Assembly: GCF_014202505.1 (NCBI RefSeq)
Contig: NZ_JACHGW010000002.1
Location: 806,001 to 870,000 of the forward strand
Direction: 5' to 3'
Source: Armatimonas rosea
GTDB lineage: Bacteria > Armatimonadota > Armatimonadia > Armatimonadales > Armatimonadaceae
DNA length: 64,000 bases
The notes below the pieces were generated by a model that was not told the origin of the DNA, did no database searches, and saw nothing but the letters and a program-made list of their open reading frames with translations. Both the position numbers and the translations under genes were made by a program. This document shows positions 2,136 through 24,154 of the stretch, piece after piece. Numbering within the stretch: the stretch's first letter is position 1; each line of letters starts with the position of its first letter.

Positions 2136-4826
2136 ATGGATGCACCCTACCAAGCGAGCCTAGATGCCTTGCCCACCGAGCTCTGTCTCCTAGATCGGCG
2201 CGGCGAGATTATCTTTGTCAATGCCGCTTGGCGTCGGTTCGCGATCGAGAGCGGTGCGGAGCTCACGGGGGTCTGCGAGGGCGCAAACTACCTCACGGTG
2301 TGGCGGCATGCCGGGCCAGAGCAGGCCACGTTCTTGGCGAGGCTAGAGAGCCTCTTGGCGGGAGAGGTGACGACCTTTGCCCTTGAGTATCCGTGTCACT
2401 CTCCAGACCAAGAGAAGTGGTTTCTGGCCCAGTTCACACGGCTCCCGGAGCAGGCATCGGGGGAGGTCTATATACTGGTTACCCATGAGAACATCACGGA
2501 GCTGAAACTCGCGGAGCAAAAGCGCACCACAGCGGAAGACGAGATTCGCTTCGTGGTGCATCATGCACGCTGCATGCTCTGGTCGGGGACCGTGGAGGAG
2601 CTTGGCAACGGCGAGCTCTGGTGGAAGATTCACTTTCAAGATGAGGCGGCGGCCTTGCAGTTTCTCCCGGTGGAGGTGGACCCGGAGAAGGGCTTTGTCT
2701 GGTCTCTCTACCTGGCACGTGTCGAGGAAGACCGGGCACGGTCGGATCAGTACGGGACACAGAAAGTGCGGGCGGGAGAGAGCTACTCGCAGGAGTTTCG
2801 CTGCCGATTAAAAGACGGTCGTCAGGTCTGGCTCAAAGACGATGTGATGGTGCAGGTAGTACGTGAGGGCTTCTGGAATGTCGTAGGGGTCATAACCGAT
2901 ATCTCTCCCCAGAAACAGGCCGAGAGTGACTTTGAGCAGCTCATGATGGGGGCACACTGCCTCCTCTGGCATGCCATTGTAAAAGACCTTGGCCCCGGGC
3001 TTGGCTTGGACTGGAACCTGACTGTCTCCAATGAAGCGGCCGCGATGGCATTTCTGCCGGTTGCCCAGGCGCGTGGCCAGTCCTACACCGATGCCTGGAT
3101 GGCAAGTCGGCTGGAAGAGGAGTGGGAGCCTCTGCACCGGAACGCCGCTGAGGCGATTCGTAGCGGACACGGCTATAGCCAGGAGTTTCGTTGCCGGCAG
3201 GCGGATGGGCAGCTTGTCTGGCTCAAGGAAGATGTCCAGGTCGAGCCTCTCGCCCCGGGGCACTGGCGGGTGATCGGGGTATGTACCGAGATCACGGAGC
3301 GGAAACACCAGGAGGAGGCGCTTCTGGCGGGAGAAAACTACCTGCGCCTCGCGCTTGAAGGAGGACAGCTCGGGTCCTGGCATGCCGATGTGTCCCAAGG
3401 GAGGTTCCTCAAGGTCTCAGAGTACCTAAAGAGCCTCTTTGGGGTTACAATCGACGAAGTATTCACCTGGGATTACTTCTTGTCTACGATCCTGTTGGAG
3501 GACCGGGGGCGGGTCTTTATGGCGATTACCGATGCGCTCACGAGCGGGGAGAGCCAGGGGGTGGAGTTTCGGGTGACGCTCCCCGATGGGACACAGCGCT
3601 GGCTGGCAGCCCGCGGGCAAGCGATTGCCAACTCCACCGGACAAGTGACCGAGATCATCGGAGTTACCCGAGATATCACCGAGCACAAGCGGATCGAACA
3701 GGAGCGCGCCGAGGCACTTCATGAGGCACAAGAGCGCGCAGATCGAGACCCGCTGACAGGCCTCTACAACCACCGGGCTTTTCACAAGCGCCTCGAAGAA
3801 GAGTGTGCACGGGCAAATCGCGAAGGGCATAGCGTCGCAGTGGTGATGCTGGATGTCGATAACTTCAAGTTCTTCAACGATGTCTACGGGCACACCACCG
3901 GGGACCATGTCCTCGGGCAGGTGGCAAAGCGCCTCCAGGAGTCCTGTCGGCCCTACGACACGATCTCTCGCTTCGGCGGCGATGAGTTTGCCTTGATCCT
4001 ACCCGGGTGTGAGGGCACACCCCTCCCCGAGATCGAGGCACGGCTCAAGGCGGGGCTCAAGTTTACCTTCCAGCCAGAGGGCTCACAGAGTGCCATCCCT
4101 ATCACGAGCTCCCTCGGGGCAGCGCTATACCCAAAGGGGCGAAATAGCTGGCACGAGATGGTGCACCTCGCCGATGAGCGCCTGATCCGTGCCAAGACGG
4201 GAGGCGCTTCGGAGCAGGAGGCGACCCGCACCCGTGTCCACATGAGCCAGCTGGTAGAGGGGTTCTCGATGCTAGATGCGCTGGTGACCGCGGTGGACAA
4301 CAAAGACCGCTACACCAAGCGCCACTCCGAGGACGTGATGGCCTATAGCCTCCAGATCGCCCGCGCACTGGGGGCATCCGAGGCGCTTCAGCAGACCATC
4401 GCGGCGGCGGCTCTGCTCCACGATGTGGGCAAGATCGGGGTGCCCGATGCGATCCTGCGCAAGCCCGGCAAGCTCACCGAGGAAGAGTTCGACACGATCA
4501 AGCTCCACCCGACCATGGGAGCCGCGATTGTCGGTGCCGTGGTCGGGCTTGAAGACACGCTCGATGCGGTGCGCCACCACCACGAGCGCTGGGACGGTAA
4601 GGGCTACCCGCAGGGAATGCGCGAGCGAGAGACCCCCTGGATCGCGCGCCTGATGGCGGTGGCGGATGCGTACTCCGCAATGACAACCGACCGACCCTAC
4701 CGCAAGGGAATGCCACCCGAGCGTGCGCTGGCGATCTTGAGGGAGGGCGCAGGGACGCAGTGGGACCCGGAGATGGTCGAGGCGTTTCTGAGTGGCCAGC
4801 GGGCCTCGAATCCGCCGAAGGGCTGA
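2136..4826 (+). CDS. PAS-repeat GGDEF and HD-GYP c-di-GMP signalling protein
   Basis: 896 aa with no signal peptide or membrane segment, so probably cytoplasmic. Four PAS-like sensor segments come first. Two of them (opening with HHARCMLW and GAHCLLW) are copies of one variant that ends in a PAC-like WxVVGVxTDIS/WRVIGVCTEIT stretch. A GGDEF domain follows (FGGDEFALILPGC intact, so probably an active cyclase), then an HD-GYP phosphodiesterase domain with HDVGKIG and HHHERWDGKGYP. It could therefore both make and break c-di-GMP. An upstream in-frame ATG at 2085 exists, but I prefer 2136: TATACT ends 6 nt before it and the PAS homology starts right after. It is transcribed divergently from osmC. 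The same PAS variant recurs in the GGDEF-EAL protein at 54640-57261. Confidence 0.92.
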   Translation: MDAPYQASLDALPTELCLLDRRGEIIFVNAAWRRFAIESGAELTGVCEGANYLTVWRHAGPEQATFLARLESLLAGEVTTFALEYPCHSPDQEKWFLAQFTRLPEQASGEVYILVTHENITELKLAEQKRTTAEDEIRFVVHHARCMLWSGTVEELGNGELWWKIHFQDEAAALQFLPVEVDPEKGFVWSLYLARVEEDRARSDQYGTQKVRAGESYSQEFRCRLKDGRQVWLKDDVMVQVVREGFWNVVGVITDISPQKQAESDFEQLMMGAHCLLWHAIVKDLGPGLGLDWNLTVSNEAAAMAFLPVAQARGQSYTDAWMASRLEEEWEPLHRNAAEAIRSGHGYSQEFRCRQADGQLVWLKEDVQVEPLAPGHWRVIGVCTEITERKHQEEALLAGENYLRLALEGGQLGSWHADVSQGRFLKVSEYLKSLFGVTIDEVFTWDYFLSTILLEDRGRVFMAITDALTSGESQGVEFRVTLPDGTQRWLAARGQAIANSTGQVTEIIGVTRDITEHKRIEQERAEALHEAQERADRDPLTGLYNHRAFHKRLEEECARANREGHSVAVVMLDVDNFKFFNDVYGHTTGDHVLGQVAKRLQESCRPYDTISRFGGDEFALILPGCEGTPLPEIEARLKAGLKFTFQPEGSQSAIPITSSLGAALYPKGRNSWHEMVHLADERLIRAKTGGASEQEATRTRVHMSQLVEGFSMLDALVTAVDNKDRYTKRHSEDVMAYSLQIARALGASEALQQTIAAAALLHDVGKIGVPDAILRKPGKLTEEEFDTIKLHPTMGAAIVGAVVGLEDTLDAVRHHHERWDGKGYPQGMRERETPWIARLMAVADAYSAMTTDRPYRKGMPPERALAILREGAGTQWDPEMVEAFLSGQRASNPPKG

Positions 4827-6385: not shown

Positions 6386-6637
6386 GTGTAACCAAACCAA
6401 GCACAGCGCGATCTTAAAGGCGATGAAGAACGCTTTTTTTGTGGCTGCGCTTGCGCTCACCCTCCCCGCGCTTGCCTCCGCCTAGACCCCTTCCGAGTTT
6501 GCCGCTCTGGAGAAACAAGTGGAGGCAGCGCGGGTGAAGTATAAGATTCCAGGGCTCTCGCTGGGGGGCTTAAAGACGGCAAGCTAGTCTACACCCACGG
6601 CTTTGGCCTGCGCGATGTCGCGAAAAAACTCCCTGCT
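6386..6637 (+). pseudogene. Truncated, broken duplicate of the serine hydrolase gene
   Basis: This stretch matches the first about 250 bp of the intact gene near 8509-8760, including the upstream GATCTTAAAGGCGATGAA. The copy keeps the signal peptide region but has a TAG stop (6483-6485) where the intact gene has CAG, and it loses one base in the GGGGG tract near 6575, which shifts the frame. Homology ends at CTCCCTGCT near 6637 and the sequence becomes AT-rich. It is a 5' gene remnant that can yield at most a 20-residue signal peptide. Confidence 0.9.
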
Positions 6638-7177
6638 CTAACACAAAATCCAAATACAGAGGAGCTTTTTCACGAATCCCCGCCGATTAAAATCTGCGTT
6701 CCGCCCTCTTCAGCGGAATACGATTCATGAAAAAAAGGTTCCTGAGAGTTGCAAATTCTTCTTCTATCAGGCTGATAAGACTTAGTAGTTTTAATTTTGT
6801 CTTTATGAATATTTCATAAGTCAAAATTATTATGCCCGCGAAATCTATATTCGGAAATTTTATATTATTTTTGTATATTAATGTAAAAAAATTGGTATGG
6901 AGTCTAATGAACTGCGGTGGGGAGGGGGACTTTGCAAAGGTATCGTTAGTCTCAGTGGTGTCGCTGGGTTCGATAAATTTCAACTAATATATTCAAGTTA
7001 GGAGGGAAATGTCCGTGAAATCCTTTATAGCTTTCTGAATTATTTGGCCTAACCAGTATCGGATTTTTGGACCAACCTACTCAGATCGTTGCAGAAGTTG
7101 CTAGGAGCGGCCTAAAAAATTTGGAACAAAATTGCCTGCCGAATTAGTCGTTAGACAAAAGGAAAACAGTAGAAATC
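6638..7177. other. AT-rich island without a convincing gene
   Basis: About 540 bp that are clearly AT-rich compared with the surrounding 65% GC sequence, with runs such as ATTTTATATTATTTTTG. One open frame exists on the minus strand (6687-6983, 98 codons, rich in Ile, Phe and Lys), but it has no recognisable family, no good ribosome binding site and foreign composition, so I do not call it a gene. A small hairpin (TTCCGC/GCGGAA) lies near 6700-6720. The island begins exactly where the duplicated serine hydrolase fragment breaks off, which suggests an insertion or rearrangement scar. Confidence 0.6.
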
Positions 7178-13790: not shown

Positions 13791-14482
13791 TCGCCCCTCG
13801 TTTGGATCGCCCCCGTTGGAGGGGGGCGTCTTGCTGTCCTCGTGCCTCGGACACGAAGGCCTTCGGCCATGGGAAGTTTATGGGGCTGAAAATATTTTTC
13901 GTGATTTTTGTCAGATTTGGCGGTGCTCACCCGTTATAGGGGCGTGAAAGAAGACTCTCGGTCCCAGCGCCGTAATATGCTGGTTCTCGCTCTCCATCTC
14001 GTCTGGGCCACGCATGAGCGTCGCCCTCTGATCACCGACGATATCGAGCGTGTGGTCTACCATGCGATCTCTGCCGAAGCGACTCAGCTCGGCTGTGAAG
14101 TTCTCGCCATCGGTGGGATTGCAGACCATGTGCACCTCGTCGTGACAATCCCCAGCACGCTAAGCATTGCCAAGCTCATGAACCAGATCAAGGGGAGCTC
14201 CTCCTCGACCATCCGCAACCACGTTGGCCCTGGTCGGTTCTTCGCATGGGAGCCGGGCTATGCCGCGTTCTCCCTAAGCCCAGAGCATGTCTGTGCGGCA
14301 AAGGCCTATGTTCTCAAACAGAAAGAACACCACGCCAACCACACCACGTTCGACGACGAAGAAATCTAACCCCCTACACACTCCCTATAATTCTGTATGG
14401 GCGGAGCCCTTCGTGTCGGAGCCTGCGACGACAGCAAGACGCCCCCGTTCATGGGGGCGATAAACGATGGGGGCGATCTAAA
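13788..14482 (+). mobile_element. IS200-like / REP-associated transposon with inverted-repeat ends
   Basis: One HUH transposase gene is bounded by imperfect inverted ends of about 70 bp. The left end (13788-13870) holds two tandem GATCGCCCC motifs, a hairpin CGCCCCCGTTGGAGGGGGGCG and then TCTTGCTGTCCTCGTGCC...GGACACGAAGG. The right end (14397-14482), read on the minus strand, has the same order: GATCGCCCCC, TATCGCCCCC, hairpin loop ATGAAC, TCTTGCTGTCGTCGCAGG...CGACACGAAGG. Foot-of-hairpin tetranucleotides and structured ends are expected for Y1 HUH elements, which move as single strands. A solitary element with a related end lies at 53112-53248. Confidence 0.75.
13944..14369 (+). CDS. IS200/RAYT-type Y1 HUH transposase
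   Basis: 141 aa from GTG 13944. Other possible starts are TTG 13908, GTG 13923 and ATG 13977; none has a clear ribosome binding site. PF01797 Y1 transposase: HUH motif DHVHLVV at residues 61-67 and catalytic Tyr122 in AKAYVLKQKEHH, the family's Y-x3-Q-x2-HH pattern. LALHLVWATHERRPLI near the N-terminus is typical of the group, as is FFAWEPGYAAFSLS before the Tyr helix. The enzyme cuts single-stranded hairpin ends, forming a phosphotyrosine link. It is complete and the ends are present, so the element may be active or may have been domesticated like a RAYT that spreads REP sequences. Confidence 0.93.
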   Translation: MKEDSRSQRRNMLVLALHLVWATHERRPLITDDIERVVYHAISAEATQLGCEVLAIGGIADHVHLVVTIPSTLSIAKLMNQIKGSSSSTIRNHVGPGRFFAWEPGYAAFSLSPEHVCAAKAYVLKQKEHHANHTTFDDEEI

Positions 14483-14937: not shown

Positions 14938-14944
14938 GGCAAAT

Positions 14945-14950
14945 AGGATA
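14945..14950 (-). promoter_or_regulatory. -10 box TATCCT, 7 nt before the cupin start codon
   Basis: On the minus strand: TATCCT, ATTTGCC, ATG at 14937. No ribosome binding site, so a leaderless mRNA is likely. Confidence 0.5.
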
Positions 14951-14979
14951 CCGCATGAGCTACACTCAGGGCACTTGCC

Positions 14980-16032
14980 ATGAGAAACGCGCTCCGTGGG
15001 CTCTGCTGCCTTCTTTTCCCGCTTGTGCTACTCGCGATGGTGGCGTGCGCGCCGGAGAAAAAGCCCCCTGTGGCGCTCCCCCCGGAGGCGAACTTCTCCG
15101 TCTATGTCGGCAACGCCGCCTGCCAGCCCTGCCACGCCGCGGAGTTTGAGAGCCACCAGAAGACCCGGCACATGAGCACGCTCCACGATGCGACTCTCGC
15201 CGCGCTGGGGCCGCTCGCCCCCGCACTTGGGGCGATTCCGGGAGGGCTGACTCTGGTGCAAGAGGGCGAGAAGCTGGCGGTGGCGCTGGCGATCACCAAA
15301 AAGACCATCCCCCTGGAGCTGGTGCTGGGCTCGGGGAAGACCGGGATGACCTTCCTCGCGCTCTTTGAGGCGGGGAGTGCGGAGAGCTACCAGAGCTACT
15401 TCCCGATCCAGAAGACCTGGCACACGACACCGGGGCAGCAGGGGCTCGCGCCGGGTGGCCTGGGGCGCCCCTACGACGAGTCCACGACCCGACACTGCTT
15501 GGGTTGCCACACGGCAACGCTGCCGACAAACTCTCTCAAGCCGGAACCGAAGTTCTATGGGGTCGGCTGCGAGTCCTGCCACGGGCCGGGGAGCCGCCAT
15601 GTCGCCGCCAAGCAGCAGGGGCGTGTCACCGACGACTCCCGGCTACGGCAGTTCGATGCCAAGAGTGGCGCGGCGGTCAATGAGCTCTGTGGGCGCTGTC
15701 ACCGCACCGCGGCCGAGCTGGCGACCATGGACCCCCGTGAGCGCGACAGCACCCAGCGCTTCCAGCCCTTTGGCCTCTCGCTGAGCAAGTGCTTTACAGA
15801 GAGCAAGGACAAGCTCACCTGCCTGACCTGCCACAACCCGCACGAAGATGCGTCCACGGACACCAAGCACTACGAGGCGGTCTGTCTCTCGTGCCACGCT
15901 GCGCCGAAAAAAGAGTGCCCGGTGAACCCGAAAGAGAAGTGTGTCTCCTGCCACATGCCGACGCGGCCGATCTTTCCGGGGAGCCCGCTGCCCAATGCGA
16001 TGGCGGATCACTTTATTAAAATCCGGCGCTAG
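14980..16032 (+). CDS. Exported heptaheme cytochrome c lipoprotein
   Basis: 350 aa. The signal peptide ends LAMVAC, a good lipobox, so the protein is likely anchored on the outer face of a membrane. Seven CxxCH heme-binding motifs are present: CQPCH, CLGCH, CESCH, CGRCH, CLTCH, CLSCH and CVSCH. Distal His residues (e.g. SHQKTRHM) match the cytochrome c554/NapC-related multiheme fold. Such proteins carry electrons to or from extracytoplasmic reductases. No reductase gene is adjacent, so the partner is unknown. TACACT lies about 14 nt upstream of the ATG. Transcribed divergently from the cupin gene. Confidence 0.92.
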   Translation: MRNALRGLCCLLFPLVLLAMVACAPEKKPPVALPPEANFSVYVGNAACQPCHAAEFESHQKTRHMSTLHDATLAALGPLAPALGAIPGGLTLVQEGEKLAVALAITKKTIPLELVLGSGKTGMTFLALFEAGSAESYQSYFPIQKTWHTTPGQQGLAPGGLGRPYDESTTRHCLGCHTATLPTNSLKPEPKFYGVGCESCHGPGSRHVAAKQQGRVTDDSRLRQFDAKSGAAVNELCGRCHRTAAELATMDPRERDSTQRFQPFGLSLSKCFTESKDKLTCLTCHNPHEDASTDTKHYEAVCLSCHAAPKKECPVNPKEKCVSCHMPTRPIFPGSPLPNAMADHFIKIRR

Positions 16033-16051
16033 CGGCGACGTGGTATACTCT

Positions 16052-16117: not shown

Positions 16118-17959
16118 ATGAGTCAAGTGGAGTGGCGCACCTGGGGTGAAGAGGCATTTGCCGAGGCCCGTGCGCAGGATAAGCCCGTTCTGCTCTCGAT
16201 CACCGCAACCTGGTGCCAGTACTGCGCCGCGATGGACGAGAACACCTATGGCAACGAAGCCCTCGCCCAGTACATCAACGACAATGTCATCCCCGTTCGC
16301 GTGGACTCCGACAAGCGTCCTGATGTCAACGCCCGCTACACGCAGGGTGGCTGGCCGACCACCTGTGTCCTAACCGGAGAGGGAGATATCCTCTGGGGCG
16401 GCACGAGTGTCCCGCCCGATGGCATGGCCCAGCTCCTGCCGCAGGTGCTCAACTCCTACCGCCACGAGAAGGCCGGGATCGCCCAGCATGTCGCCGGGCA
16501 GCGCGAGCAGATCCGCCAGCAGCACGCCGCCCCGCCGTTCGATCCCAACCTGCCTGTCGATCCCAATATCCCCTTTGGCGTGCTCTTGGGCGCAAAGTTT
16601 GAGTTCGACTTCGCCTTTGGTGGCTTCGGGCACAACGGCCAGAAGTTCCCCCAGAACGAGGTCACCGAGCTGGTGATGGAGCAGTACTCCCGTACCCTCC
16701 GCGCCGGGACCCCCGATGCCGACCTCAAGCTGATCTTGGAGCGTACCTTCAAGGGAATCGCCGAGGGCGGGCTGGTCGATGAGGGCACGGGCGGGTTCTT
16801 CCGCTACGCCCAGACACCCGACTGGCGCAACCCCCAGGTCGAGAAGCTGCTCGAGGACAACGCCGCGCTCGTGCGCCTCTTCTGCCGCGGCTACAACCTG
16901 CTGGGCGAGGAGTCCCTCAAGGCCGCGGCCAAGAAGGGCCTCGACTACCTGCGCACCCAGCTCTGGTTCGAGGACCTTGGCGTCTTTGGTGGCTCGCAGT
17001 TTGCCGATGGGGAGTACTACGCCCAGCCGCTGGAAGAGCGCGCCGAGTGGAACCCGCCTGCGGTCGATGAGACTATCCTGACAGGGGCCAATGCCGTTGC
17101 GGTCCGTGCGCTTGTGGCGTGGTGGCAGGCGACCGGCGAGACCGAGGCGCTGGCCCAGGCCTGCCGCGTGATGGACTACCTACTGGCCAACCTGGTCGAT
17201 GAGAGCGGCTGCCCGACCCACTTCCAAGCCGCCGAGGGCGAAGATGTCGGGGAGATCCCGACCGGGATGCTCTCGGATGCGGCCGATCTGGTGGCGGCAG
17301 GGCTAGACCTCTACGAAGCCGGGCAGGGCGTGAAGTACCTGGACCGCGCCGAAGAGATCGCCAACTGGAGCCGGGCCAACCTGGAGTCGGCGGAGTCCGG
17401 TGGGCTCTACGATGCCCCGGTGCGCCCCAATGCTCTAGGGAACCTCAAGGTCGGGACCCGTGATGTCGCCGACAACATGCTCCTAGCCGACTCGCTCCTG
17501 CGCCTCTTCTTGGCCACCGGCGAGACCGAGCACGCCCAGCTCGCCCAGCGCATCCTCCAGTCCTTCCAGCCCGCGGCCCCGAACATGGGCTTCTTTGGAG
17601 CCAGTATGGCCCTCGCGATCGAGCGTGCGGTCCTGCCGCCGGTCCTGGTGCATGTCCTTGGGGGCGCGAGCGATCCGCGGACCCAGGCGCTCCTGCTGGC
17701 CGCCCACAAGCCCTACCGCCACGAGAAGTTTGTCCAGCCGCTCGACCCGGCCAACGAGGACGACGCGGCGCATATCGAGAACCTGGGCTACCCGGTTCCC
17801 GAGCAGCCGACCGCGCATATCATGGTCGCCACCGAGGCCCTCGCGCCCACCGTGGACCCCGAGGTGCTGATCGAGACGATCCAGAACGCGGCTGCCTCGC
17901 TCGTGGGGATGCCCGATCTGAGTGCTCTGGTCGGGGGAGATGAGACCCCCGAGGCCTAG
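16118..17959 (+). CDS. Thioredoxin-fold DUF255 / YyaL-type protein
   Basis: 613 aa. Residues about 1-110 are a DUF255 (SSP411/YyaL) thioredoxin-like domain with CxxC at Cys33-Cys36 in TWCQYCAAMDENTY, and GGWPTTCVLT, the cis-Pro region. Residues about 200-600 form the (alpha/alpha) barrel found in the same proteins, similar to N-acylglucosamine 2-epimerase (e.g. GLVDEGTGGFFRYAQTPDW, AVAVRALVAWW, NLESAESGGLYDAPV). No signal peptide, so cytoplasmic. Family function is not established; a redox role linked to carbohydrate handling is often assumed. Single gene with its own promoter and a terminator, converging with the AAA-WD40 gene. Confidence 0.92.
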   Translation: MSQVEWRTWGEEAFAEARAQDKPVLLSITATWCQYCAAMDENTYGNEALAQYINDNVIPVRVDSDKRPDVNARYTQGGWPTTCVLTGEGDILWGGTSVPPDGMAQLLPQVLNSYRHEKAGIAQHVAGQREQIRQQHAAPPFDPNLPVDPNIPFGVLLGAKFEFDFAFGGFGHNGQKFPQNEVTELVMEQYSRTLRAGTPDADLKLILERTFKGIAEGGLVDEGTGGFFRYAQTPDWRNPQVEKLLEDNAALVRLFCRGYNLLGEESLKAAAKKGLDYLRTQLWFEDLGVFGGSQFADGEYYAQPLEERAEWNPPAVDETILTGANAVAVRALVAWWQATGETEALAQACRVMDYLLANLVDESGCPTHFQAAEGEDVGEIPTGMLSDAADLVAAGLDLYEAGQGVKYLDRAEEIANWSRANLESAESGGLYDAPVRPNALGNLKVGTRDVADNMLLADSLLRLFLATGETEHAQLAQRILQSFQPAAPNMGFFGASMALAIERAVLPPVLVHVLGGASDPRTQALLLAAHKPYRHEKFVQPLDPANEDDAAHIENLGYPVPEQPTAHIMVATEALAPTVDPEVLIETIQNAAASLVGMPDLSALVGGDETPEA

Positions 17960-17976
17960 GCCCACTCTCGCCCGGA

Positions 17977-18010
17977 AAGGCCCCGCACGGCAGCGCTGTG
18001 TGGGGCTTTT
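17977..18010 (+). terminator. Intrinsic terminator between convergent genes
   Basis: Stem GCCCCGCAC/GTGTGGGGC (one G-U-type mismatch) followed by TTTTCTATTTT. It ends exactly at the stop codon of the opposing AAA-WD40 gene. On the minus strand the same stem is followed by CCTTTCC, so it may act weakly in both directions. Confidence 0.8.
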
Positions 18011-21000
18011 CTATTTTGGGGGCTGCGTGAGGGGAATCTTCTCGGTGAGGCCGTTTTCACGGATAAAGCTGGCCTGGTCTTTTTCCCAGCGCACACGGGC
18101 GCTGGGGCTTGCCTGGACAATGGTACGCCACACACGCGTCTGCAGTTTCGTATCCCAGACCTCCGCGCAGCTAGTATCGTGGATCGCGACATAGCGGCCC
18201 TCTGGGCTCCAGCTGAGAGAGAGGCGCGAGCTCTGGAGGACACGCCGCGTCTCCAAATCGAGCACCACGCTGCTTTCCAGAGGACTGTCGAGCCAACCTA
18301 GCCAGGTGTAGCTGTCCTTGGCCACCTGCTCATCCCGTAGGCCATTGTTTGTCGAGTGAACCCGTAGCACGGGGGAGGGGTTTCTGGGCGGGATGCTCCA
18401 GAGGGAGAGCGTGCTGCTTGTCCCGAGGATCGCGACCTGGGGCTGTGTGGGGGAGAGGGTAAAGCTACGGCTATTGCGAAAGCGGGCCGTGACGATGCGC
18501 CTCTCCGTCTTGCTCCAGAGAACCACGGGATCGCCGAGAGTCTGTGCTAGGACGCGGTCGCTATCGGGGAGCCAGGCGACTTGCTGAACGAAGTGCTGTG
18601 GAGGAAAGAGGCTGTAGGGGCCGTCGGCGGGACGACCACTGCGGGGCTCCCAGAGCAAGAGGCTGCCTGCCTCGTCCCCCACGGCCAGGGTCTTGCCATC
18701 GGGGCTGAAGCTCCCACAGCGGGTGATGGGATTGGTCGTGACCATGAGGGGAGAGACCGCCCGCCCCGTCTCCAGGTTGTAGAGGCAGGCATTGCCCGTT
18801 CCATCCGTGTAGTGCCCGATCACTGCGATCACGCCGGGGGTTGGGGTGGGGACAAACTGGTAGGCCCAGTCGGGGCCGGCGGCCTTGTTCTGCGCGGTGG
18901 AGAAGGCGCGGGTCATCTGCCCTGTGGCGACACGGGCGATATTGCAGACATAGCCATAGGCCCCAAAGGCGAGCTCGGTCTCTTGGGGGTTGCTAAAGCG
19001 TGCCACATGAGCGTAGGGAATCTTGGTACTCTTCTCCGCCGTCCAGCGTCCCCCCATGTCATCGTCCCAGACACGGCTGATCTCGTTTCCGGTACGCGTG
19101 TCCCAGACCACGCACCCACCCTGACCACTGGAGATCAGCTTCGTGCCCTCACGGCTGGGGGCAAGGTCCAGGATCGGGGCGTGCTGCACCGTGTGGACCA
19201 GGGCTCTGGTGGGCGCTCCCTTTCCCCAGAGGTGAATGCGACTATCGTTCCCCCCCGATGCCAGCCGGTTCCCCGAGAGAAACGCGAGCGCCGTGACTCC
19301 CGCTCCGTGGAAGTAGGCGGGGCTAAGGGGCTTGCCTGTGACGCTCTCAAATACCTGGACCCAGCCATTCTCGGTTCCCACCGCAAGCTTGCTCCCATCC
19401 GACGAGTAGAGCGCTGTGGAGGGAGTTCCACGACAGACAATCTTGCGTCGCAGACGAGGCGCACAGGCGGTGATCGTCTGCTGGCAGAACTGCGCGAGCT
19501 GTGCCTGCTCGGGGGAGAGCCTACCCTGCTGCAGGGCTGCTGTGAGATGCTCCGCCGCCGCCTCGGTCTCGGCGTTGCCGAGCGCCCGCAGTGCCAGCGC
19601 CAGCTCGACGCGGCCGAGGTTGGTCTGTGCCGCGACCGTGGCACGATCTGCCCGGCCCCGTGCGGTCTTCTCCGCGACGAGAGCTGCCTCACGGTCCTTG
19701 AGAGCGCTCTCTTTTGCCTGAAGGGCGGCCTCTTTCTCGCGCAGCGCCTGCTCCTTCTCGGCGAGGGCACGGGCGCGCTCTTGGGCGAGCCGCTCCGCAC
19801 GGGCCTGATTTTTCTGGGCGAGCGTGCGGTTCTGCTCGGAGGTTTTCTGGGCACGCAGGGCGCTCCCAGCCTCACGGTCGGCCCGCTGTGCGGCTTCGTC
19901 GGCGCGGCGGGCACTGAGCAGCGCCCAGGCGGTGAGCCCACCCATGGCGGCCAGAACCCCGCCCGCCAGGGCTCCCGTCCGTAGGGCACCGCGCCGGAAC
20001 GCGGCACGCTGGCGGCGCAGCTCTCCGTCGGGGAGGTTCTCCCGCACCCAGACAAGGTCAAAGACATGGGCGTAGATCCGGTTGCGAACCGCCAGGGTGC
20101 CCTCGGGCTGGGAGCGGACAATCCCCGCGAGGTGGAGCGTGTCGCACAAGGGCGATGTGGGATCGTCGGCGACCCGCTGCCCGCCCCGCACCTTGCCATA
20201 GAGCTCCAGCAGGGCCGCACGGTCGTCCTCCCCCCGGAGCAGGCGCGTGGCCACAAAGGCCAGGTTGTCGTCGCTCTCCCGGGCCGCGTGGGTAAAAAAG
20301 AGGCTCGTCACTGCCTCGTCCACGCTCCCGCCCGTCTCCAAAAGCCGCGCACAGAGCCGCTGGGTGAGGTAGGGGTGCCCGCCGGTCCAGTGGAGGACAC
20401 GCGCCAGAGCTGTACTCCCACCGGGAAGGCTGGCCGCCAGCGGGGCCGCATCGGTGAGGGTGAAGTCCGTGAGGGTGATCTTCTTGCCGATATTGAACGG
20501 CGACACCAAGGGGTTTGCGATGAGCTGGTTGGGAGTCGCCACTCCTACCAAACAAAACGTCAGCCGCGCCAGCTCTGCCCGCTCGGCACGGCGGTTGTAG
20601 AGCGCACGGATTCCCACAAAGAACTCGTCCACCGAGAAGGGCAGTAGCCGCACCGCGTCGATCTCGTCCACAAACACCGTCAGCCCCCGCTCGCCTGCTG
20701 CGGGGAGCGCGACCTGCTCCAGCACATGGAAGAAGCGCTGCGCCGCCCCAAGCTGGCTCCGTGCGGCAAACGCCGTCTCCAGAGTCTCCTCCAGCTCGGG
20801 GCGCTTCAAAAAACGGGCAAGCTGCTCGGCGAGCTGCAGGAGCAGGCCATCGTACCAGGCGTCGGGCGTGAGGTTAAAGCCGCCCGCCGTGATGTCTAAG
20901 ACCACGCTCGTGACGCCGCGCTCCCGCAGGGCATGGGCCGTGCGGATCATCAGGCTCGACTTGCCGACCTGGCGCGTGTTGAGGACGTAGCAAAACGCCC

Positions 21001-21100
21001 CGCCTTGCAGTGCCTCCAGAAGCTCACTATCCGCGCTTCGTGCGATATAGCTCCGCGCATCGGCAGAGAGTGTCCCCCCCGTCACAAAGAACGGTGCCAA
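18011..21100 (-). CDS. AAA-like (PF14516-type) ATPase with membrane segment, coiled coil and WD40 repeats
   Basis: 1029 aa. Residues 1-260 are an AAA-like STAND-related NTPase: P-loop NTRQVGKSSL (40-50, first Gly replaced by Asn, as usual in this family), Walker B LTVFVDEIDAV (140-150), SPFNIGKKITLTDFTL (200-215) and GGHPYLTQRLC. Residues about 375-397 (TGALAGGVLAAMGGLTAWALLSA) form one membrane span, followed by a charged coiled coil (about 400-500) and at least seven WD40-type repeats (about 570-1020; e.g. LASGGNDSRIHLWG). Family knowledge: STAND/WD40 proteins sense a ligand with the propeller and signal through the NTPase. Start is TTG 21100; TATAAT lies at 21128-21133 and no in-frame ATG/GTG is nearer. 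A sister ATPase lies at 21619-23067. Confidence 0.88.
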   Translation of the reverse strand: MAPFFVTGGTLSADARSYIARSADSELLEALQGGAFCYVLNTRQVGKSSLMIRTAHALRERGVTSVVLDITAGGFNLTPDAWYDGLLLQLAEQLARFLKRPELEETLETAFAARSQLGAAQRFFHVLEQVALPAAGERGLTVFVDEIDAVRLLPFSVDEFFVGIRALYNRRAERAELARLTFCLVGVATPNQLIANPLVSPFNIGKKITLTDFTLTDAAPLAASLPGGSTALARVLHWTGGHPYLTQRLCARLLETGGSVDEAVTSLFFTHAARESDDNLAFVATRLLRGEDDRAALLELYGKVRGGQRVADDPTSPLCDTLHLAGIVRSQPEGTLAVRNRIYAHVFDLVWVRENLPDGELRRQRAAFRRGALRTGALAGGVLAAMGGLTAWALLSARRADEAAQRADREAGSALRAQKTSEQNRTLAQKNQARAERLAQERARALAEKEQALREKEAALQAKESALKDREAALVAEKTARGRADRATVAAQTNLGRVELALALRALGNAETEAAAEHLTAALQQGRLSPEQAQLAQFCQQTITACAPRLRRKIVCRGTPSTALYSSDGSKLAVGTENGWVQVFESVTGKPLSPAYFHGAGVTALAFLSGNRLASGGNDSRIHLWGKGAPTRALVHTVQHAPILDLAPSREGTKLISSGQGGCVVWDTRTGNEISRVWDDDMGGRWTAEKSTKIPYAHVARFSNPQETELAFGAYGYVCNIARVATGQMTRAFSTAQNKAAGPDWAYQFVPTPTPGVIAVIGHYTDGTGNACLYNLETGRAVSPLMVTTNPITRCGSFSPDGKTLAVGDEAGSLLLWEPRSGRPADGPYSLFPPQHFVQQVAWLPDSDRVLAQTLGDPVVLWSKTERRIVTARFRNSRSFTLSPTQPQVAILGTSSTLSLWSIPPRNPSPVLRVHSTNNGLRDEQVAKDSYTWLGWLDSPLESSVVLDLETRRVLQSSRLSLSWSPEGRYVAIHDTSCAEVWDTKLQTRVWRTIVQASPSARVRWEKDQASFIRENGLTEKIPLTQPPK

Positions 21101-21127
21101 GTTGTCTCGTGCGTCGTTGATAAGGCG

Positions 21128-21133
21128 ATTATA
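21128..21133 (-). promoter_or_regulatory. -10 box TATAAT upstream of the AAA-WD40 gene
   Basis: A perfect consensus -10 box on the minus strand, giving a predicted leader of about 20 nt before the TTG start. A plus-strand TATAGT (21176-21181) serves the divergent zinc-ribbon gene, so two promoters lie back to back. Confidence 0.6.
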
Positions 21134-21195
21134 CCGACTCTCTACAAGAGCGCTCTTATCTGAAAAACGCTGTGGTATAGTTTCCCAAAATCCTT

Positions 21196-21597
21196 ATGGC
21201 AAATATACTTATGACACTCGCACTCCCGATAACTTGCCCCCTGTGTGGAATGCAACTCGCGATGAATCCGAAGGCTATTGGCATGGGAGCAGGATCATGG
21301 GAGGTTCAGTGTACAGAATGTTGGCAAGCCTGTGAAGGCGTGAGTGGTTATGATTCTCGTACTGCGTTAGCCTACAAGCAGCTCTCAGAGCTTCGGGAGC
21401 AATTCGTTAACACAGGAGATATCACATTGGTTGAAGACGATATTCTTAAACTCGCCCATGATTATGATGTGACATTTCAAGACCGCCATTGCGATTGTGG
21501 GGCACCATTCTCCATCGCCGCTAAGCCTCGCTGTCCTGTTTGTAGTGCCATTGTCTTCAATAGCTATTTTCACTACGTATTTACACCAGATGTGTGA
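21196..21597 (+). CDS. Small double zinc-ribbon protein, unknown function
   Basis: 133 aa. Two Cys-rich knuckle pairs at each end: CPLCG and CTECWQAC near the N-terminus, HCDCG and CPVCS near the C-terminus, spaced for one or two zinc ribbons. The middle is helical (LAYKQLSELREQFVNTGDITLVEDDILKLAHDYDVTF). The gene is clearly less GC-rich than its neighbours and uses many A/T-ending codons, a sign of transfer. TATAGT 14 nt upstream gives a short leader. It lies between two genes for related AAA-like ATPases on the opposite strand, so it may act with them; no recognised family. Confidence 0.75.
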   Translation: MANILMTLALPITCPLCGMQLAMNPKAIGMGAGSWEVQCTECWQACEGVSGYDSRTALAYKQLSELREQFVNTGDITLVEDDILKLAHDYDVTFQDRHCDCGAPFSIAAKPRCPVCSAIVFNSYFHYVFTPDV

Positions 21598-21618
21598 TGT
21601 GATGCCTCAGGGGGGCAC

Positions 21619-23067
21619 TTATGGCTCTGCGTTCCTGAGGAGCCAGTCGCGGTAGAGGCGGCAGCGGAAGCGGGCCTCGCTTGACGAGTCTCCGGCGAGG
21701 AGGCCGGCGGCGCGGAGGCGGTAGAAGGGCTCTTGGCTGAGGGTTTGCTTGCCCTCTAGCAGGCTCTGGATCGCGGCGCTCTGGCCGGGGCTGCGCTGCA
21801 AAGACGCACTCAGGCGGCGCAGGTGGCCGCCAAAGAGCCCCTCGGGGTTGAGCGCTTGGGCAAGCAGCTCGGCCAGCGGGAGGCCGTCGGAGAGGGCGTG
21901 GAAGGCGAGGTGGTTTAAGTAGGGTTGCCCCCCAATCCACTCGCGTAGCGCCAGGAGCTGGTCGGAGCTAACCAAGGGAGAGCCAAAGCGCCGGTTGAGC
22001 TCGGCGGTGTCCTCCAGCGTGAAGTCCGAGAGAGTCAGCCGCGTTCCCACGTTGAAGGGCGACTGGTGCAGGTCGGTGAGGAAGAGCTGCGCCTCGGTGG
22101 CGTAGGCGATCACGAGGGTCAGCCCGCTCCAGGGGCCATCGGGCTCCAGCGAGCGGCGGTTATGCCAGGAGCGGAAGAGCCGGAAGAGATCAGGGCCAAA
22201 GGGGAGCTCAAAGAGCCGGTCTACCTCGTCGAGTGCCCAGACAACCGAGGTCCCACGCGGCTCCAGCACCGCGCGACGGACAAAGCGCTCTAGGTTCATC
22301 GCGGGGCTGCGCGCCTCGCTCCAGAGCGCCTCAGGGGACTCGTCTACGCCCAGCTCATCGGCGAGCGAGGTGGCCAGCGCCCGGAAAAAGGCCGTGGCAT
22401 CGGTCTCGGGGAGGGTGGCCAGATCGGTGAGCGCGACCCGTGCGCGGCTCTGGCGGGCGGCCTGAGCCCCCCGCGCCAGCAGGCTGGTCTTGCCCACCTC
22501 ATGCGCCCCCTTGAGCAAGATAATGGAGTCGGTGCGGCGCAGCGCATCCCGCAGAGCACCGTCGGTCGCCCGCTCGATATAGTAGCTCGCCTCCAAGGGA
22601 ACCGCGCCCCCAGGGACGATCCGGCGGGTCTCTGTAAGGGTGGGAGCGCTCTTGGCCGAGCCCAGCCCCAGCGCCTTGAGCCGCTCGCGCTCGGCAATCA
22701 CAAAGTCGTCGTAGAAGCCCGCTAGGAGCTGGTCGGGGTCGAAGCTACGGCCCGTCTCCAGGGCAAGCGCGAGGTCGGTGGTGACGTGCTCCGGGAGGAG
22801 CTGGACATAGGTGCGGTCGGTGGTCAGCGCCTCACCCAGGCTGGTGCGCAGGGCATTGAGCGCGACATTGAGGCTATTGCGTCCACTGACCGGCTCGACC
22901 TCGGGCCAGAAGAGCTCGGCCAGAACCTCACGGGGCTGGGGGACGCCCGGGCAGAGCGCCAGATAGCCCAGGAGGGCCGCCGCCTTACGGGTGGGGAAGT
23001 GCTCGACACGGCTACCGTCGCGAAAGACAATAGCCGGGCGACCGAGAAGCTCGATATGAACCGACAT
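21619..23067 (-). CDS. SARP/BTAD-type winged-helix head fused to AAA-like ATPase
   Basis: 482 aa. Residues 1-95 look like the OmpR/SARP-type DNA-binding and BTAD start seen in large ATP-dependent regulators: MSVHIELLGRPAIVF, FPTRKAAALLGYLAL, LFWPEVEP and NSLNVALNALRTSLG. Residues about 155-440 are the same PF14516-like ATPase as in the AAA-WD40 protein: GAHEVGKTSLL P-loop at 187-197, VVWALDEVDRLFELPF Walker B, SPFNVGTRLTLSDFTLEDT and GGQPYLNHLAFHAL. The shared SPFN(I/V)G and GG(H/Q)PYL motifs show that the two ATPases are paralogous. It probably binds DNA and regulates this cluster. Repeated TTGCCTTAA sites lie directly upstream. It converges with the zinc-ribbon gene (21-bp gap). Confidence 0.85.
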   Translation of the reverse strand: MSVHIELLGRPAIVFRDGSRVEHFPTRKAAALLGYLALCPGVPQPREVLAELFWPEVEPVSGRNSLNVALNALRTSLGEALTTDRTYVQLLPEHVTTDLALALETGRSFDPDQLLAGFYDDFVIAERERLKALGLGSAKSAPTLTETRRIVPGGAVPLEASYYIERATDGALRDALRRTDSIILLKGAHEVGKTSLLARGAQAARQSRARVALTDLATLPETDATAFFRALATSLADELGVDESPEALWSEARSPAMNLERFVRRAVLEPRGTSVVWALDEVDRLFELPFGPDLFRLFRSWHNRRSLEPDGPWSGLTLVIAYATEAQLFLTDLHQSPFNVGTRLTLSDFTLEDTAELNRRFGSPLVSSDQLLALREWIGGQPYLNHLAFHALSDGLPLAELLAQALNPEGLFGGHLRRLSASLQRSPGQSAAIQSLLEGKQTLSQEPFYRLRAAGLLAGDSSSEARFRCRLYRDWLLRNAEP

Positions 23068-23069
23068 GG

Positions 23070-23121
23070 TTGCCTTAAATTTTAACTCTTGCCTTAATTA
23101 TTCCTTCTTGAAATTTAAGCC
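23070..23121 (-). promoter_or_regulatory. Direct and inverted repeats upstream of the SARP-ATPase gene
   Basis: TTGCCTTAA occurs at 23070-23078 and again at 23089-23097 (19-bp period). An inverted copy AAATTTAAGCC lies at 23111-23121, matching GCCTTAAATTT (23072-23082) at 10 of 11 positions. SARP-type regulators bind direct repeats about two helical turns apart, so this may be an autoregulatory site. Confidence 0.4.
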
Positions 23122-23191
23122 TGACCCCGCTTGCGATTTATGTTGTTTTTAAGAGCCAGGGTCTATCTTGCTTGTTCAGGAGGATACTTCC

Positions 23192-24061
23192 ATGATAACT
23201 CGTCTCGCACTACGCTCTACACTCGCTACCCTCGTGGCACTCAGCGCCACCCTTGCACAGGCACAGACCATTTTTTCTACGGGCTTTGAAGCCCCCGGCT
23301 ATAGCGCCACCGCGACCTCGACGGTCTTTAACCCCTACACGGGAGGGACGTTTACCACAAGCCCGGGGGCGATCCACAACGCGGGCTGGGAGACGCTCTT
23401 CACCCCAGGGACGAACGCCCAGCAGGCGGTCAACTACCCCAATGCCCTCAATGCCAGTCAGATACAGACAGCGACTGTGCGCACCGGGAGCCAGGCGCTC
23501 CGGAGCGATGGTGCCGTCGCGCAGCAGACGATCTTTGGTACCGCGACCGGTATCGGCGTGAGTACCAGCACGGGAATCCTCGACCTGAGCTTCGACATGC
23601 TGGTGACAGCCCCGAGCGCCCAGACCGGCCAGTGGGGCCTCAGTGTCTTCGATCAGGGGTTGCGTGAAATTGCGAGCCTGGGCTTCTATGGAGGGTTCCT
23701 GGTTGGGGGAAGCGGCGCCACTACCTATGGACTCGCCTCGCCAACAGCGGTGGGCTACAACAACTGGGCAAACTATGGCCTACGGGTAAACTTCTCCGCC
23801 AAGACCATGAGTATCTTGCTCAATGGAACTCCCATAAGTACTCTCCAAAACCTCCCGCTTCGCAACGATATCAACTTTACGGCACGAACGGGATACCTTG
23901 GGCTTGGAGGACAGGCTCCGCTGGGAGCTGCCTATACCACAACCCCCGAGCGCGCCTTCTTCGACAATGTCACCGCGAGCACCGCACCCGAGCCGGGGAC
24001 ACTCGCCTTGCTCAGCCTCGGGGGAACCCTGGTGGTTTTACGCCGTCGGCGCACTCGCTAA
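23192..24061 (+). CDS. PEP-CTERM exported protein
   Basis: 289 aa. CAGGAGGA before ATG 23192 is a strong ribosome binding site and rules out the earlier in-frame start at 23168. Signal peptide MITRLALRSTLATLVALSATLAQAQ, then a beta-rich domain (STGFEAPGYSAT ... NVTASTA) similar to lectin/LamG-like surface proteins. The C-terminus PEPGTLALLSLGGTLVVLRRRRTR is a classic PEP-CTERM sorting tail: PEP, a membrane span, a basic end. Such proteins are cut by exosortase and go to the surface or the extracellular matrix. Followed by a strong terminator. Confidence 0.9.
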   Translation: MITRLALRSTLATLVALSATLAQAQTIFSTGFEAPGYSATATSTVFNPYTGGTFTTSPGAIHNAGWETLFTPGTNAQQAVNYPNALNASQIQTATVRTGSQALRSDGAVAQQTIFGTATGIGVSTSTGILDLSFDMLVTAPSAQTGQWGLSVFDQGLREIASLGFYGGFLVGGSGATTYGLASPTAVGYNNWANYGLRVNFSAKTMSILLNGTPISTLQNLPLRNDINFTARTGYLGLGGQAPLGAAYTTTPERAFFDNVTASTAPEPGTLALLSLGGTLVVLRRRRTR

Positions 24062-24073
24062 GTGTGCCCCGAA

Positions 24074-24107
24074 GAGCCCCGTGCGGACCCGCGCGGGGCT
24101 TTTTCTT
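24074..24107 (+). terminator. Intrinsic terminator after the PEP-CTERM gene
   Basis: Stem AGCCCCGTGCG/CGCGCGGGGCT (near-perfect) followed by TTTTTCTTTT, 12 bp after the stop codon. Confidence 0.9.
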
Positions 24108-24154
24108 TTCCACAGGAGGAATGCCGCGCTCCCTGTCGAACCCCTACTCTTAAG

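Follow-up and report, generated by a model that had tools for sequence, protein, structure and literature searches.

A pair of homologous AAA_35 ATPases in Armatimonas rosea as candidate sensing and output subunits of a membrane-anchored STAND-type relay

Two large ATPase genes lie on the reverse strand of the stretch of Armatimonas rosea DNA analysed here (the window, 64,000 nucleotides (nt) in all), separated by a small zinc-ribbon gene of low GC content on the opposite strand, and the locus raises the question of what such a pair does and whether the gene between them belongs to it. Immune receptors of animals, plants and bacteria are built around STAND ATPases, and a single chain usually carries the sensor, the switch and the effector. 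The two window ATPases are probably, with ample room for doubt, two subunits of a membrane-anchored STAND-type relay, one sensing and the other delivering the response, with the zinc-ribbon gene a later insertion. The same kind of ATPase pair recurs in several bacterial phyla and resembles a switch for signalling or defence that has not been described before.

The three open reading frames (ORFs) proposed in a first-pass annotation, made from the DNA letters alone, proved to be real and correctly placed, and both large products are AAA-like ATPases of the Pfam family AAA_35 (PF14516, "AAA-like domain"), scoring above the family cut-off. The motifs said to be shared by them are present, as GKSS, SPFNIG and GGHPYL in one protein and GKTS, SPFNVG and GGQPYL in the other. 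AAA_35 proteins separate cleanly by score and architecture into class 1, with a strong AAA_35 score and an output head in front, and class 2, with a weaker AAA_35 score, a membrane segment and repeats behind. The features of the locus, with residues numbered in amino acids (aa), are:

18011-21100, reverse strand: class-2 AAA_35 ATPase with membrane segment and WD40 region, putative sensor subunit (1029 aa, TTG start; AAA_35 76.9 bits, E 1.7e-21, cut-off 27 bits; WD40 repeats 48 bits, cut-off 27)
20333-21076, reverse strand: AAA_35 domain of the class-2 protein (aa 9-256, Pfam)
19916-19972, reverse strand: predicted transmembrane segment of the class-2 protein (aa 377-395; hydropathy 1.72; six K/R on the N side, four on the C side)
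18071-19450, reverse strand: WD40 or beta-propeller region of the class-2 protein (about aa 551-1010; Pfam propeller models at 551-682, 750-872 and, weakly, 960-1010)
21196-21597, forward strand: orphan double zinc-ribbon gene of low GC between the ATPase genes (133 aa; CPLC/CTEC and CDC/CPVC motifs)
21619-23067, reverse strand: class-1 AAA_35 ATPase, soluble, putative output subunit (482 aa; AAA_35 202 bits, E 1.4e-59, curated cut-off 27 bits; class assigned by similarity)
21640-22614, reverse strand: AAA_35 domain at aa 152-476 of the class-1 protein, with Walker A (GKTS), Walker B (DE), SPFNVG and GGQPYL
22783-23034, reverse strand: SARP-type winged-helix DNA-binding head at aa 12-95 of the class-1 protein, after which most of BTAD is absent
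23070-23119, no strand: AT-rich repeats (a 19-nt sequence in two direct copies, and an inverted repeat of 12 nt) that lie directly upstream of the class-1 start and may be an operator
17926-24133, no strand: block absent from the same-genus genome G001 (aligned with its contig C143), comprising the class-2, zinc-ribbon and class-1 genes and a PEP-CTERM gene (23168-24061)

The two classes travel together. Nine AAA_35 matches were found in the source genome, five of class 1 and four of class 2 when sorted by similarity to the two window proteins. Among this genome and 60 relatives, 11 of 61 are AAA_35-positive and all 11 have both classes, a count that takes in fragments and contig-edge genes, with one class fragmentary or cut by a contig end in two genomes (G029 and G008). 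Across the phylum, AAA_35 is present in at least 57 of 291 genomes, at most seven candidates per genome having been scored so that the counts are lower bounds. Among genes with at least 1.5 kb of DNA on both sides, which leaves out seven fragments and 12 genes near the end of a stretch, a class-2 gene lies within 600 nt of 14 of 17 class-1 genes and a class-1 gene within the same distance of 12 of 17 class-2 genes. The order is not fixed, with class 1 first, class 2 first, convergent and, once, divergent arrangements. Whole genomes were searched in this phylum and plasmid and viral sets beyond it; of 72,556 plasmids, mostly cyanobacterial ones gave tblastn matches, 43 to class 1 and 41 to class 2, and 9 of 13 fetched plasmid regions hold an adjacent pair (Cyanobacteriota, Chloroflexota, Abditibacteriota).

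Partners also vary together. The distance matrices of the AAA domains in 28 adjacent pairs correlate (r 0.695), a value reached in none of 5000 free permutations. Since kinship between species could itself produce such a correlation, partners were reassigned only inside genomes with several pairs; the true pairing ranked first of 96 such reassignments, with r 0.695 against a mean of 0.364 (five genomes, 11 pairs reassigned). In a 26-pair version r was 0.639, with the same nearest neighbour in only 10 of the 26 pairs. That the true partners are the best among within-genome swaps argues for direct partnership between cognate proteins, without proving contact. The suggestion that the two ATPases form a pair was thus borne out by joint presence, usual adjacency and co-variation within genomes.

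STAND-class NTPases have Walker A and Walker B motifs together with a GxP motif in their helical or winged-helix part. Head and sensor counts were made on 40 of 43 class-1 and 35 of 47 class-2 ORFs, contig-edge and fragmentary ORFs being left out. The Walker A GK is present in 40/40 class-1 and 35/35 class-2 proteins and the Walker B aspartate in 40/40 and 33/35. The glutamate that follows is missing in 8 of the 40 class-1 proteins (kept in 32) and kept in all 35 class-2 proteins, suggesting that hydrolysis may sit mainly in the membrane partner. The window proteins read GKTS and DE (class 1) and GKSS and DE (class 2). Both classes also share a GGxP motif (class 1, G in 40/40 and P in 38/40; class 2, both in 35/35), which may correspond to the STAND GxP motif.

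On the class-2 side, the membrane span and WD40 propeller seen in the first-pass annotation are both recovered, with a hydrophobic segment at residues 377-395 and WD40 repeats above the Pfam cut-off. Such a segment exceeds the hydropathy threshold in 20 of 23 class-2 proteins, and WD40 was found in 30 of 35, with TPR in some of the others. Lysine and arginine are commoner on the N side of the segment in 30 of 39 class-2 proteins, an analysis that always yields a best segment, so that its 39 proteins are no detection rate, and cysteine is half as frequent C-terminal of the segment as in the AAA part. Charge and cysteine would together fit an exported sensor.

On the class-1 side the head is exchangeable. 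Among the 40 class-1 proteins, 18 have TIR_2, 17 have BTAD, nine have Guanylate_cyc and one each has Pkinase and Trypsin_2, the categories overlapping. Two proteins (L126 746-3007 and L129 1755-4082), each next to a convergent class-2 gene, combine SARP and TIR in a single polypeptide, and another (L119) has a kinase head followed by TIR. Plasmid members carry TIR, CHAT, CHAT plus TIR, or helix-turn-helix (HTH) heads. Swappable heads on one partner and a propeller or TPR with a membrane segment on the other fit a division into output and sensor.

Two further loci come from the plasmid and viral sets. On a plasmid of Nostoc sp. HK-01 (L135 11350-24990), a type II restriction enzyme gene, annotated as an NspV homologue, lies between a CHAT-headed pair and a TIR-headed one. 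On the viral-collection contig IMGVR_UViG_3300031236_000894 (L136 5473-9053), a TIR-headed class-1 gene overlaps a TPR class-2 gene on the same strand, with opposite-strand ORFs on both sides. One of these flanking ORFs is weakly like DUF2460 (22.6 bits, cut-off 30.4), none of five ORFs of the contig matched PHROGs at E 0.001, and its phage nature rests mainly on the collection's own label.

In the window the class-1 head is SARP-like. It matches Pfam Trans_reg_C at E 2.9e-4, under Pfam's cut-off. A first winged-helix model had included the window protein and was circular for it; rebuilt without it, the model gave 65.8 bits at residues 14-93. No Pfam match to BTAD was found in the protein at E <= 1, and all that was seen of BTAD is an 8.1-bit fragment (aa 113-132). 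With a winged helix present and most of BTAD missing, the head is SARP-like and not a full SARP; the DNA-binding head proposed at the outset therefore holds, with its BTAD mostly gone. When the class-1 profile was run against solved structures it matched AfsR (E 2.5e-15) and EmbR (E 2.1e-12). A SARP-type DNA-binding head makes a transcriptional output likely for the window copy.

In the proposed relay, the class-2 ATPase domain would lie in the cytoplasm, with one membrane crossing and a sensing WD40 propeller beyond the membrane. Upon sensing, the class-2 protein may change or assemble with its cognate class-1 ATPase through the homologous AAA_35 domains, as their co-variation suggests, and the class-1 protein would then apply whichever output head it carries. 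In the window copy this would be the shortened SARP winged helix, with a change in transcription as the predicted result. The original suggestion that the membrane ATPase senses and the SARP ATPase switches transcription is therefore well founded as regards the pair; its mechanism is plausible and is drawn from sequence.

Several observations weigh against this relay. The topology of the class-2 protein is based on hydropathy and charge alone, and low cysteine may be the norm for propellers. The co-variation test is based on five genomes with 11 pairs and on raw identity distances. Despite room for a partner, 3 of 17 class-1 and 5 of 17 class-2 genes are unpaired; one of the five sits in an array of two class-2 genes and one class-1 gene, and one of the three has a broken class-2 fragment 3.4 kb away. 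The window operon is interrupted, with 518 nt between the ATPase genes. Finally, the window class-1 protein has H and E ahead of the P-loop, where R is found in 38 and Q in 37 of 40 class-1 proteins, and this departure from a near-invariant Arg-Gln, with the largely missing BTAD, suggests that it may be degenerate.

The pair is not fixed within the genus. In G001 the genes flanking the block, whose proteins are 91% and 86% identical to those of the window, lie about 66 nt apart, and the alignment ends at window position 17925 and resumes at 24134, so that both ATPase genes, the zinc-ribbon gene and the PEP-CTERM gene are present in A. rosea and missing from G001. On the strength of these two genomes the difference may be a gain or a loss. 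A second presence/absence block (14938-16040) lies 2 kb from the first, where a gene with several CxxCH motifs (14980-16032) is absent between the same neighbours in G001.

This patchy presence and empty site would be in keeping with an anti-phage defence system, in which the propeller detects an invader and the SARP head induces defence or death genes. Relatives of the module carry TIR, CHAT or trypsin heads, and such effectors are recurrent in known conflict systems (PMC7159879, PMC8195603); the TIR pair beside the weakly DUF2460-like ORF on the viral-collection contig and the restriction enzyme gene between the two Nostoc HK-01 pairs point the same way. However, no PADLOC 2.0.0 family scores convincingly, the one match being PDC-S01 to part of the class-1 ATPase (17.8 bits, E 2.7e-4), the examined neighbours of the window pair are non-defence genes and a SARP head kills nothing by itself, so a defence role for this copy is rated as unlikely, if still a serious contender.

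The 518-nt spacing, the missing BTAD and the unusual residues ahead of the P-loop would also be expected of a decaying remnant, its operon split by an inserted gene and its head curtailed. Both frames are nevertheless long and open, with Walker A and B, SPFNxG and GGxPYL intact, and decay is accordingly judged improbable.

The zinc-ribbon gene itself was described as compositionally foreign, and it is indeed odd, with a GC of 0.473 and a third-position GC (GC3) of 0.425 compared with 0.66-0.68 and 0.79-0.84 in its neighbours, values as low being found in 1.1% of 402-nt windows. Its product reaches only 16.6 bits with Zn_ribbon_4 (cut-off 30.3) and has no relative among the solved structures searched, and an AlphaFold model from the single sequence (mean pLDDT 46) was not used. 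At E <= 0.001 relatives were found in one of 291 phylum genomes, its own; matches at E 0.005-0.01 in five other genomes were taken as chance, covering just 40-59 residues and lying mostly within much longer frames. Viral contigs, plasmids and phages gave no match. The scan of the genome_contigs collection, which requires exact 8-residue stretches so that distant relatives could escape it, gave a single match (L052, 26 residues), rejected because the rest of the frame was unlike the query. No similar ORF was seen near the other ATPase pairs examined. The expectation that the three genes would stay together therefore holds for the ATPases, which as a rule are not independent, and fails for the zinc-ribbon gene, which was found in no other of the 291 phylum genomes and is no core gene. 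Given the lack of relatives in the phylum and the other collections, it is probably a later insertion into the operon and no standing part of the module.

The intergenic gap is at most 173 nt in 23 of 24 other same-strand adjacent pairs. In the exception (L125, 520 nt) the class-2 gene is separated from its cyclase-TIR class-1 partner by a gene for a cyclic-nucleotide-binding protein (4053-4541), which runs on the opposite strand; this gene was rejected as a standing partner, occurring beside this one pair only. That two unrelated genes occupy the same slot may be coincidence or may reflect a site tolerant of accessories. A single three-part system, in which the pair would control the zinc-ribbon protein as its cargo, adaptor or effector, would suit the position of the zinc-ribbon gene (head-to-head with the class-2 gene at 95 nt, tail-to-tail with the class-1 gene at 21 nt) and the small opposite-strand gene beside the cyclase-like-headed protein of L125, but is very unlikely given the occurrence of the zinc-ribbon gene in one phylum genome, the short gaps elsewhere and its unlike composition.

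The repeats upstream of the class-1 gene were proposed as regulatory sites. They are present and ordinary for the window, which holds 51 comparable close 9-mer pairs (three AT-rich) as well as 22 overlapping inverted repeats that are about as good. With up to three mismatches allowed, the repeated pair has no other copy in the genome, which leaves the proposed regulatory role unsupported. The repeats overlap the stretch where the ribosome-binding site would be; they may still be a candidate operator common to the class-1 gene and the divergent PEP-CTERM gene. A promoter scan (three sites against 0.7 expected, no terminator) was not used.

Elsewhere in the window, an IS200-like (Y1) transposase family gene at 13908-14369 (Pfam Y1_Tnp, 82 bits) has a GC below its surroundings. 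At 6401-6983 GC falls to 0.36, the window minimum, with a 98-aa ORF on the reverse strand (6687-6983) and an AT-rich inverted repeat at 6792.

Taken beyond the window, the membrane-anchored relay may represent an undescribed, widespread two-subunit STAND family in which one ATPase senses across the membrane and its cognate partner carries an exchangeable output, at one end of the range a death effector (TIR, CHAT or trypsin) and at the other a transcriptional head (SARP or HTH), a generalisation that is tentative and a little short of an even chance. If true, sensing and output divided between homologous ATPases, with cognate partners and either killing or transcription as output, would offer a simple system for studying how a receptor hands on its signal, and one sensing machine could set off either the killing of the cell or a change in gene expression. 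A function would then also suggest itself for AAA_35, a domain frequent in this phylum and on cyanobacterial plasmids and unnamed in the defence catalogue used (PADLOC 2.0.0).

Full-text literature searches, with most subscription papers outside their reach, found no description of a paired AAA_35 module or of such a two-protein division; in the portion consulted of one paper AAA_35 appears as an accessory domain of cyanobacterial sigma factors (PMC11119718). STAND and ternary NTP-dependent conflict systems, as far as covered by the sections consulted (PMC7159879, PMC8195603), likewise join an NTPase core to exchangeable effectors (TIR, trypsin-like, cyclase) and share with the present module repeats of the propeller or TPR kind and partners that are cognate, their trees being congruent; the name AAA_35 is absent from the main texts of both papers. 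Compared with the VMAP or MoxR-vWA ternary systems, the window locus has two homologous AAA_35 subunits instead of MoxR and vWA, and neither domain is among the Pfam matches of the three genes (the other neighbours being unscanned for it). DGR-diversified STAND antigen-sensor systems, in the part of the account consulted (PMC10907252), are alike in their STAND ATPase transducer, variable sensors and TIR or CHAT effectors, but place C-type-lectin sensors on NACHT or nSTAND1 cores where the present pair has WD40 on AAA_35. AfsR-type large SARP regulators (SARP, NOD and TPR), as outlined in the sections consulted (PMC10936776), resemble class 1 in joining a SARP head to a nucleotide-binding switch domain; the window class-1 protein differs in its ATPase family, in having no TPR on the chain and in its mostly missing BTAD, with the sensor apparently a separate membrane protein.

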